A DNA stretch of 64,000 bases from Arctopsyche grandis (Eukaryota; Arthropoda; Insecta; Trichoptera; Hydropsychidae): assembly GCF_051622035.1 (NCBI RefSeq), contig NC_135357.1, positions 33,150,191 to 33,214,190 on the forward strand, written 5' to 3'. This document shows, one piece after another, positions 35,901-44,900 of this stretch (positions are counted from its first letter, which is position 1; each line of letters opens with the position of its first letter). Position numbers and translations under genes: made by a program. The notes below the pieces were generated by a model. It had not been told where the DNA came from. It did not search any database and saw only the letters and a list, made by a program, of their open reading frames with translations.

Positions 35901-38900
35901 CCAGAATGAACTGTTCCCTCAATTCGATGTTGGTACGTCCCTTGGCTGAAGTGCCAATTGAATTCAATATGCGGAGGAGACGCCGTAGACAGGTCCGTGT
36001 CGCAAATGCACAAGGGGAGACGGGGGGGGAGTTAAGTAGCGGAGACCAATTGAAGGATTGTCAGGATGGGATACGATAAATTTTACCGGATTTAAATAGA
36101 AAATAATCGAAATAATAGTAACAACAAAATCAGAATTACGTGCAAACCAATTTGCATAGAAAACAATGATTTTTTTTTTATATTGAAATTTGCAATGTGA
36201 AAGGAAAAAGAAAAATTGAACGTGAGAAGGAAATGCGGAGTCAAATTGTGGTGGAAATAATGAAAAATAAAAATAAAAAAAAACAATCAGAACACCAACC
36301 AAAGTAAAAATAAATAATAAAAAAAGATTGGATATATTCGGTACACGGATACGGGTGATAGGAATGTTGTCATTAGTATTTCTCATTATTTAAAAATTAT
36401 AATATAGATTTGCATAAAAGTAATTGAACGCAAACATGACAACATCCAGTCACACAAGTCACAAGAAATAAAAATTTTCCATTGGAAAATAGAGATCATG
36501 TGTATACAAAAAGAGAAATTGTGATAGTTCGGGGATGAATAGTAAATGTTGAGGGTACGTGTAAACGTTCTGGAGTCGTAATACCAGAAGTATATAAAGC
36601 AATTCGTCATAGATGATTTTTATTTCTTGTCATATGTGTAATAAATAAAACGAAACGTGTAATACTCAATAACTAGTGTGATTGTGAAAAAAAATCAAAA
36701 AACAAACAGTAAAAAATCTTGAATCAATAAAAAACTAATTGAGAAAAATTTATAATCATATAATATGTCATTGATGAGAGCAAAATGTTTAAAAATGATT
36801 AATTCAAGATTTTTTAAATGCAAAATAAAAACAAATATACTACCAGTGTAATGATGTTAAATAAATAATTGAATAGTTTGAAGTAATTGTGCATGTGAAC
36901 ATGAAAATAATGATAATTAATTAACCTACGATAAAGCATGTCAAAAAAAAAAACAACACAAAATAAAACATCAATACATACACCAACATGAAGTGAAAAA
37001 TAGCAATATATGTAGTAATATATATATATACATAATAATCGAAAGCATTTAAATTAAATAAAAAAAATCGAATGTATAAATAATAAACATTGATATTGTT
37101 CAACTTCATGCGACATGTTCCATACACATGAGACAAAATTAATGTGAACATAACATCTACACCGTTAGTTATGCATTAAAAATAAAAATAAAATAATATT
37201 ACTGTCATCAAGCAAACCGTACAAAAAAAGCTACAAAACAAAACGGGCAAATCCACCTTTCAATGTGTCGATTGAATGTTTCAATATCAAAGATAAAAAA
37301 TCGTCTCTGAAGTAAGAAGAGGTTTGTAATAAGAAAAGGGAAGTAGCATTGATGTTTAGATCGACTGTTGAAAGATTGGATTTGCTCGTGCCAACGTATG
37401 AATGCTATCTTACCAAGGGGGCAACAAGCCTCGTGTTGCTCCGGTTTGCTCGGGTCGGGTAAAGGAAGGACTAATGACACTACTCGAATAATAAATAAGT
37501 GATAGCGGGGGAGGTGTGGGCCGAAAATATAATTTTAACGTTTCAAATCATTTATAACCAATAAAAAAAAATCAAAACCAAAATAAAAACCAACGTTTGT
37601 TTTAGAAAAAAATTAGGATTATTAAAAAATATTATGATTATTGCCAAAAAACAAACAATAAAAAATAAATACGGAATGACCAAAGTGGAACGAATGGGAA
37701 ATTAAACAAAGCATTGTATTAGTACATTAATCAATTAGTGGTTTATTAAACATGAATGCATTGGTTAAAAATGAAATTAAAAATTGCAATTTCGAGGCGA
37801 CATTATAAGCCTCAATTGAAAAATTAAAACAATAAAAAAAAAACAAACACACTTCATGATGAAGGTTTTGTTTGCGGTATACGTTTTTTTTTTTTTTTTG
37901 GTGAGTGAACCAAAACACAACAACAATGTAAATTATTAATTTGGTTAGATATCAATAGTTTTTATTTATATAATATTGATAATACTGCAGTGAAATAATA
38001 AAATCAAAAAAAAAAAAATGTTCCCGAAGGGAATTCTTAAGCAGTTAGCACATTTTGTTTTGTTAAAATTGTTATGTTAAACTGACGACTTCTACCTTTA
38101 TGTTTTTGTTGTGAACAATTTGTAATGCTCGTTTCCGTAACAGTTAAATCGTATACAAATGAGTGTGTAAACGTGTATTTTTTAGTGTAAACATGTAAAT
38201 ATAATATAATGTAATTAAAATTCTCATAAAATAACATTAAAACGTCCAAGAGGCAAAAATATCATACACAAATAATAAGCTTTAAATGTAATTATTAAGC
38301 AATATAGACGACCAATTAATGAATATTCAATATATAAACGAATCGTATAATACATATTGATGAGTTTAATTGTTTAATTGCGTCGTATAAACTCATTAAA
38401 ATACACATCCAAAATTGGTGTTTCTGTTCAATGTCAAACGATTTCAGCTTTTACATTTAAAATGACCAGTGCACAGTTATTGGCCAATTTATCCTAATAT
38501 AATGACAGGTTGCCCTAAATCGAAACAAATGGCTGAATTTGTACACGTGTATCATGCAGCGTATGATTTTTTTCAATCGAGGTCTAACTAGGGCTCGAAC
38601 TCGGGACCTCTCAGTCGCTAGCAACGTAATTTAACCAATCGTGTATAATCATTGTCTATTGTGTGCGTGCGTGTGTACGAAGTACTCGCTGTTAACACGC
38701 CCCGTCTATCTTTCTCCCCTTCGAATAGTATATCGTGGAAAGAGACGCGGCATATCACTTCGTTCACATGATCGGCCGACAGAAATTAAAAAAAAAATAA
38801 AATCGTTGATCCGAATTGCGATATTTTACTGAGTGCACAAAGGCCACTAGTGACTTAATAATATAATAACTGCGATATCATGTACATATGTACATTTTAC

Positions 38901-41900: not shown

Positions 41901-44900
41901 TAACATATCGCAGAAACGGGCCTCGCTGCCGGCTATGTGTTCCGTTCGACGTTTGCACTATGAGGGTATAATCTATCGGTTCAAATTCATGATGCTGACG
42001 ACGCTCGTCTGCGCCGCTTTGACCGTCGTGGGATTCATCCTGGGACAGGTGGCCGAGGGGCAGTGGAAGTGGGACGAGAACACCGAGTTGGAGTTCAATT
42101 CGGCATTCTTCACCGGCGTCTACGGAATGTGGAATATATACATCTTCGCTCTGATGATTCTGTATGCGCCCAGTCACAAGAAGTGGCCGATGACTAACAA
42201 TCCCGATAGTCAGAATTTGAGCGAGGAGATTGAATTCAGTCGTCTGCCTAGCGAGACCAATCCTAGCGAGATATCCTCGTTGACTTCGTTCGTCCGCAAA
42301 GCGACGGTCGATTAAATATCCATGACTGGCATTTCCAATGATGATTTTTATATGTTGTTTTAACAGTATTATTTTGATATTTATTTTGCAGCAGCTGACG
42401 TATGCGTAGTGCGTAAATGATATTTTTTTATTTCGTCGACGACAAAATGATTATATTTTAGATATTATATTAGTATATCTTGTATTTATTACTATTATAA
42501 TATACTTAATGAATGTGATGTTTAGAATTAAATACATAAATTATTCCTATGTAGTATGCAATCGATGTTCGTATGCGAGCACATTCTCCGTTTCATATCT
42601 TTTTTTTTTATTATTGCACGTAAACTGTGTAAAATTCGCATTTATTAATGTTTAATTTAAGGATATATATATATAATGTGGTAGTTTGATATTCTACTTA
42701 TAATACTAAAAAAAAAAAAAATACACAATGTGATGTAACGTTTAGTATGCATTTATTTTTATATGAAGATGTTTACTAAAAGTGTGCTTAAAACGGTAGC
42801 TTCCAAAACTGTAGTCTAAATTTTTTATTATTATTAATGTTTAAGGCTAACAATATTTTTAATTGATGTTTTTTTTATACACTTTTTATTAAACTAAACT
42901 TCCTTAAATGTAATCGAATAATTGTAATAAGATATTTATATTAATTTAATTATTATGTAATATGAATGTGTCCCTGTTTCGCCATTTTAATGTAAACGCT
43001 ATATTATACTTGATGAATAAATAATCTTATTTAAATATGCCTTTTTGTTGATATTTTTGCCTCTTAAACTCGGAACGATTATGAATAAAAATTGCAATAA
43101 ATACGATATACAACATTGACGGTATGGCTATTGGAATATTCCATTACCATAGACATTAATGGCCTTAAAAACCATGAGATTGCTTCTATATTGAAGCCTG
43201 ACTGACTGAATGAAGCTGTCTCAATACAAAATAAAACAGGCCTGTTCGTATATAAATCAGTTTAGAAATAAATAGAACTCAATTTTGTAATGCCTGCTAA
43301 ATCAGACTCAAACTTGAATTTTATACCATTTCAAATACAAATTTGTATTACCAACAACATATCTCAGTGGTTAGCGTATAATGCTTTCCTTTTTTTTTTA
43401 GCGTATAATGCTTTCAACTGAGGGGTTATGGGTTCAATCTCTGGCCTGATGTTGCTGGCTAGACCTTGGATATATGACTCAAATCAGAGTGTGCCAATTT
43501 ATATGATTTCATTGTTGAAACGGTTCCACCGAGTTGGCAGCCTATCCCCGTTTCTTACAAATTTGAGTTTATGGCATCTCAAATTTGTTGATTATTATAA
43601 AAATACTACCTCGCAATTTGTATTTCTCGCAAATATTTGCTTTCGATTTTTTCCATAGATGTGTCTATGGTATTGTATCTGTAGTGTAATTATTATTTTG
43701 AATAAAAATACTAATAATTTTATTTTACTACCGCCATCTATGTTTAAAACTAATAAACAAACGGTGGATAAACGTCAACGACTATCTCGTCGGGCAGATT
43801 TCAAACGCGTCTTACACGATATTTTTGCACCATCCATTTACTTATATTGATGACTAAAATGAGCAATATGGCAAAGTATGAAAACGATCGGATAAGAGGC
43901 AAACTTTTTCCTGAATTGTAATCGTAAGTGAAACGTAAAGGAGGTATGTAATAATAATAAAAATGGGTTCAATCTAATTATAATGTCGATCAAACTGACA
44001 GATTCAAGAGCAGGCCTGTTTTAGTTGTTGGTACCATAGTTTATAGCAATTTTTAATCGATTCACATACATATAAAACAATTATATCTAAATCATGTACG
44101 ACTATGTAAGTCTTTCCAATGTATCAATGTTAGTATTTTAAAGCTAATTATATTTTTTAATAGAAATTTTATAATTCTCATACAATTAGTCGTAAATGAT
44201 TAGAATGAGGAAATAATTTGAAATTATTTTTCCATTCGGCTATCATCTTGTATATTTGAAAGAAAGTTTTGGATGTAATGGAATATGACGTACCTCTGCA
44301 AGGATCGTTCTTGACGAGGAACTCGTCGAGGGCTACCCACCCTCCTCCGACTCTCACCATGACAGTGGAGCGAAGAATTCGGACGAGTCGCAGTTTTTGA
44401 GAATCACCAAACTATCAAAAAGAAAATTGACCATTAGCAAACAAACACTCGGACGTAAAAATGTTCACAATCTTACTTGTATATATGTATGTAAATAAAA
44501 CACTTACCCTATATTTTCCTTCGCCGACTTGGAACACTCGGAACTTCTGCCTGCAAGTACACATCATGACGAGTCGCTTGACTTCGTCGTGGATCTTATC
44601 AGCGTCCGTTTCGGGACGACGATCGACCCAATCAGGTCTGAGAGCTGCGATGAACTCTTGCCAATCGATCAGACCGGAATTGTTCCTGTCGAACAGATCG
44701 GCGACGGCTCCCATTTCCAATTTGGACGTGTCGAATTCTACACACACACAAAACAAAATCATCAATACAGTGATTTGAATACAGTAAGCATAGCTCGGAA
44801 TATATTGTAGATATTGATTGTACTGACTGGTGTTCATAATTCCGTCGATGAAATCGTCCCTCGGAATGAGCCCGTTGTTGTCCTTGTCCATCTTTCTGAA

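Follow-up and report, generated by a model that had tools for sequence, protein, structure and literature searches.

Genes nested within introns of other genes are already known as a kind, and several described systems come close to the locus reported here. In Drosophila, elav lies in intron 3 of arginase, with a conserved one-exon coding region on the strand complementary to an unrelated host, and this nesting is reported to be unique to Drosophila (PMC2529313). The placement of sina in Rh4 is another precedent (PMC2529313). The tim2-2mit pair of Drosophila and honey bee comprises a large host and a protein-coding gene that runs in the opposite direction inside one of its introns, with conservation demonstrated across species (PMC3786989). 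The TipE cluster, all of one gene family, occupies the last intron of CG18675; its nesting probably goes back to the ancestor of insects and was lost in the silk moth (Bombyx) and a beetle (Tribolium) (PMC3240667). Here we describe a further case, the Wntless gene wls within an intron of short stop (shot), found in a 64,000-nt window of the Arctopsyche grandis genome (C3:33150191-33214190 of a 475.7-Mb, 189-contig assembly). The locus is very probably an ordinary host/nested pair, in which a single wls with one coding exon forms a separate plus-strand unit in the shot intron between GRD and Ctail. Like elav, wls has a one-exon coding region opposite an unrelated host; unlike elav, which retains the intron-bearing relatives fne and rbp9 (PMC2529313), it is the only copy detected. 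The pair shares its antiparallel geometry with tim2-2mit, though the genes are others, and it differs from TipE in that one unrelated gene rather than a family cluster is nested. Among the open-licence papers found on wntless or short stop in connection with nested genes or gene structure, no title or abstract opening mentions wls in shot. The nesting brings together two fundamentally important genes, with wls lying intact between two functional modules of Shot.

The coding sequence (CDS) of wls extends from 40678 to 42315 on the plus strand and comprises 1,638 nt, that is 545 codons and a stop, in one exon and a single uninterrupted frame. The product matches two Pfam models over their full length, WLS_GOLD at positions 1-183 of 183 and WLS-like_TM at positions 1-247 of 247. 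Residues 1-536 are collinear with human WLS (7kc4_B) with an E of 4.9e-170. Both the GOLD domain and the Wntless-type transmembrane domain that characterize the Wntless (WLS) family are therefore complete. NCBIfam, a prokaryote-oriented library, gives no match for wls, and no relative was confirmed in viral contigs (3 pattern stretches) or prokaryote contigs (7 stretches), which is unsurprising for a gene of animals. Rfam gives no match at gathering score, and ARAGORN predicts no tRNA in the window.

The host gene is read from the minus strand. Six successive exons from 46197 to 35800 splice into a single open frame of 287 amino acids. E1 (46120..46197) and E2 (45017..45188) are placed by the in-frame splice model, which domain matches support for E3 (44828..44945), with the first EF hand, and E4 (44508..44737), with the second EF hand and the start of GAS2. 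E5 (44294..44411), which holds the remainder of GAS2, has the splice model, a domain match and alignment to MACF1 behind it, and E6 (35800..35945), the first exon after the host intron, the splice model and the same alignment. The five introns between them are all GT..AG and measure 931, 71, 90, 96 and 8,348 nt. The 287-residue product covers positions 1-69 of 69 of the GAS2 profile (E 2.7e-32) and also matches the EF-hand pair. Spectrin repeats are found in minus-strand open reading frames (ORFs) at 53-60 kb, which completes the set of spectrin repeats, EF-hand pair and GAS2 domain of a spectraplakin (shot/MACF1). The N-terminal calponin-homology and plakin domains are expected past the right end of the window. 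The host intron (35946..44293, minus strand, 8,348 nt, phase 1) runs from the GRD (GAS2) exon to the first Ctail exon, with donor gtacgt and acceptor cacttcag. Exons 44411-44294 and 35945-35800 fuse in frame, and the alignment with human MACF1 (5x57_A, E 7.9e-38) crosses the junction, reading NDPCRARGR in MACF1 and NDPCRAKGR here. The wls CDS (40678-42315) lies wholly within this intron (35946-44293). A preliminary description of this DNA had proposed an intact 545-codon wls on the plus strand of a single shot intron and a splice from exon 44294-44411 to 35800-35945; its coordinates, gene identities and strands hold, and so does the in-frame join.

Chance matches are excluded by the domain and alignment scores of both genes, as judged from sequence. 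The WLS_GOLD model has one place in the genome, the wls in shot (the only candidate, scored). The WLS-like_TM model (PF06664) has four matches with all 26 candidates scored, one at wls and three at a single locus on contig C11 (G000:C11:13181500-13191400). This locus was considered as an additional copy or pseudogene of wls, and the idea was rejected. The locus is split over several reading frames or exons, its sole tblastn match with wls has 23 of 65 residues identical, and an upstream piece in the same orientation matches TMEM181_GOLD, identifying it by sequence as TMEM181, a paralogue of wls. The wls within shot is thus the only wls detected in the assembly. The GAS2 model gives five genomic matches, two exons at shot, two matches on C12 and one on C8. 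Those of shot type are confined to one place, and C8 and C12 hold other GAS2 genes.

A near-perfect palindrome of about 400 bp (38985-39382) lies in the shot intron on the 5' side of wls, with a smaller one at 39417-39513. As RNA the larger has a folding energy of -270.8 kcal/mol (z -38.75), and shot RNA would fold it into a long hairpin. A search of the genome with it returned 86 matches from the best 40 of 4565 first-look candidates; the 39 other places among these best 40 have 83-92% identity on the better strand. It is probably a dispersed repeat resembling a miniature inverted-repeat transposable element (MITE). A high-copy palindromic repeat is a spot where assemblies can fail, and wls could in principle have been misjoined into the shot locus. 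Such an artefact would require two breaks, one on either side of wls, and shot exons stand in order on both flanks and splice in frame across it; we consider it barely credible. The preliminary description had named a join error as a danger to its reading, and the ordered exons on both flanks, together with a single place each for shot-type GAS2 and WLS_GOLD, make one unlikely.

The sequence preceding the wls ATG, TTTATTTCAG|GTTTCAAAATG, is a good 3' splice site (TTTATTTCAG, at 40668..40669, 8 nt 5' of the ATG), suggesting a probable upstream exon and intron in the 5' untranslated region (5' UTR). In a consensus scan, candidate donors for this first exon are, in falling score, 40017, 40538 and 40137, and only 40344 among four initiator-like sites is plausibly placed. 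A motif scan finds candidate poly(A) signals AATAAA at 43016, 43084 and 43096 (43016..43101, plus strand), and ATTAAA at 42527 and 42888 are earlier candidates. The nesting is observed for the CDS and would, we infer, extend to the whole wls transcription unit. Of the nesting in an 8.3-kb intron claimed earlier, the length of the intron and the position of the CDS are confirmed, while the placement of the 5'-UTR exon is conjectural. In an ordinary host/nested pair, the minus-strand shot pre-mRNA would carry antisense wls as part of an intron and lose it by splicing. The wls gene would be driven by a promoter of its own, with a 5'-UTR exon preceding the 3' splice site. Both genes would be expressed and mostly uncoupled, consistent with the little correlation between host and nested expression in surveys cited by PMC3786989 and PMC3240667.

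Beyond the host intron, the shot Ctail continues on the minus strand with E7 (32155..32303) and the GSR-rich E8 (31956..32074), both joined in frame. A further chain of probable exons, 27514-27155 with one SKIP motif, 25358-25251 with one SRIP motif and 23920-23725, runs in frame to a stop. The exon with SRIP (25251..25358) is in frame with both the preceding exon (27155..27514) and the following one (23725..23920), the probable last coding exon. The phases of 32074-31956 and 27514-27155 are incompatible with a direct join, so at least one unplaced exon probably lies between them. From its sequence, this chain is likely the shot Ctail, with SKIP and SRIP as candidate SxIP-type Eb1-binding motifs. 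Two simple repeats are found in the introns of this region, a short tandem repeat at 34795-35069 in the intron after exon 35800, open on both strands (QLFQHC and LKQLAM repeated), and a microsatellite at 32931-33125 translating as repeated YI.

The position of the host intron brings in a coupling of the two genes. The Drosophila inversion allele shotV104 interrupts shot in the intron behind GRD; it breaks intron 22/23 and predicts a protein that reads into the intron and has no Eb1-binding Ctail (PMC9320987). It is a mutation deleting the Ctail, whereas the host intron here is whole and spliceable. The two introns are alike in lying directly behind GRD, compared by this place rather than residue by residue. 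Interference or shared control of wls and shot, raised in the preliminary description, is possible on the present sequence. In one specific form, convergent wls transcription would end some shot transcripts early and yield a shotV104-like protein of GRD plus 38 extra residues with no Ctail. Read-through into the intron meets a stop at 44180-44178; beyond it come the hexamers ATTAAA (44161 and 44057) and AATAAA (43724), and the SKIP and SRIP exons lie beyond the host intron and would be lost. Mcts2, nested like wls in a host intron, provides a model for such interference, since its transcription makes H13 polyadenylate within the intron (PMC13309782). However, H13/Mcts2 is mammalian and imprinted and its interference is demonstrated (PMC13309782), while for the wls/shot pair early termination is a prediction from sequence. 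Such hexamers are also frequent by chance in AT-rich DNA, with 20 listed in 40000-44293, and the surveys of host and nested expression mentioned above speak against coupling. Early termination of shot by wls is improbable. Even a real truncation of shot might be mild, since V104 causes no microtubule curling in Drosophila neurons (PMC9320987). If the two genes are uncoupled, as expected for an ordinary pair, the locus is one more such pair; it is in any case a natural place for asking whether convergent intronic transcription shapes spectraplakin isoforms.

Human WLS has many introns. A one-exon CDS of 1,638 nt would suit a processed wls copy that landed in the shot intron and became the sole copy, for which we see about an even chance; the alternative would be relocation of a wls that already had few introns. 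The third-position GC of wls is 0.64, compared with 0.40-0.46 for three shot ORFs and 0.50 for a nearby receptor gene, a contrast that fits a separate history of wls only weakly. Several points weigh against our account of the locus. All evidence on the nesting is genomic sequence. Because of the 3' splice site that precedes its ATG, wls is not wholly intronless. The flanks 40150-40420 and 42850-43330 share no 9- to 12-mer that would indicate a target-site duplication, an absence that says little since shuffled flanks average only 0.6 shared 9-mers. No flanking poly(A) tract was found for wls; a single A-run of 14 at 42708 is probably inside the 3' UTR. The processed copy in particular is disfavored by the failure to find an intron-bearing parent in the genome, where WLS_GOLD has its one match. 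Marks of retroposition fade with age. A combined scenario, in which a processed wls landed in shot, supplanted its intron-bearing parent and now determines by its transcription how much shot is truncated, giving V104-like, Ctail-less Short stop in Wnt-secreting cells, is highly improbable.

In Drosophila, both shot and wls are essential, and wls is on 3L. Drosophila shot is at 2R 50C (PMC9320987). From this separation the preliminary description concluded that the nesting is not ancestral to all insects, which goes too far: unlinked genes show only that the nesting is absent there today. They are no proof of a later origin, because the TipE nesting was probably ancestral and then lost in some lineages. 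An old nesting, in which wls entered the intron early in insect history and the arrangement was later lost in Drosophila, can be entertained tentatively and merits some weight. It agrees with the TipE example of old nestings lost in some lineages (PMC3240667), and marks of recent insertion were not found at the wls flanks. On the other side, nesting in general is gained more often than lost (PMC3240667), which mildly favors the dating argument of the preliminary description, and elav is nested only in Drosophila (PMC2529313). Whatever its age, the wls/shot nesting is a clear character for dating gene relocation in insects.

Two further elements lie on the minus strand of the window. An intact chemosensory receptor gene, a single ORF of 318 amino acids (15661-16617, 7tm_7 E 7.5e-14), is located 3' of the stop codon (23725) that probably ends shot, and a reverse transcriptase fragment is at 19209-19889 (RVT_1 E 4.5e-19). 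Elsewhere in the genome, a mitochondrial-like stretch of about 8.3 kb (891-9191 of G000:C1:36080000-36089900) is inside the 42.7-Mb contig C1. It includes a full-length COX1 match with 11 in-frame TGA codons. Its tRNA order is trnM(+)-trnQ(-)-trnI(+), then trnW, trnC and trnY, and later trnK and trnD, among 23 tRNA predictions that include two apparently spurious ones with odd anticodons. The MQI order is also described for the sawfly Moricella rufonota (PMC8279154) and, with the control region after trnM, for a cephid sawfly (PMC9542849), a one-marker resemblance that hints only weakly at a sawfly. The set trnY-C-W-I-Q-M (891-2463) is mirrored by trnM-Q-I-W-C-Y (2716-4290), and the stretch may be mitochondrial DNA that was inserted into the nuclear genome and carries an inverted duplication, or it may have been included during assembly.

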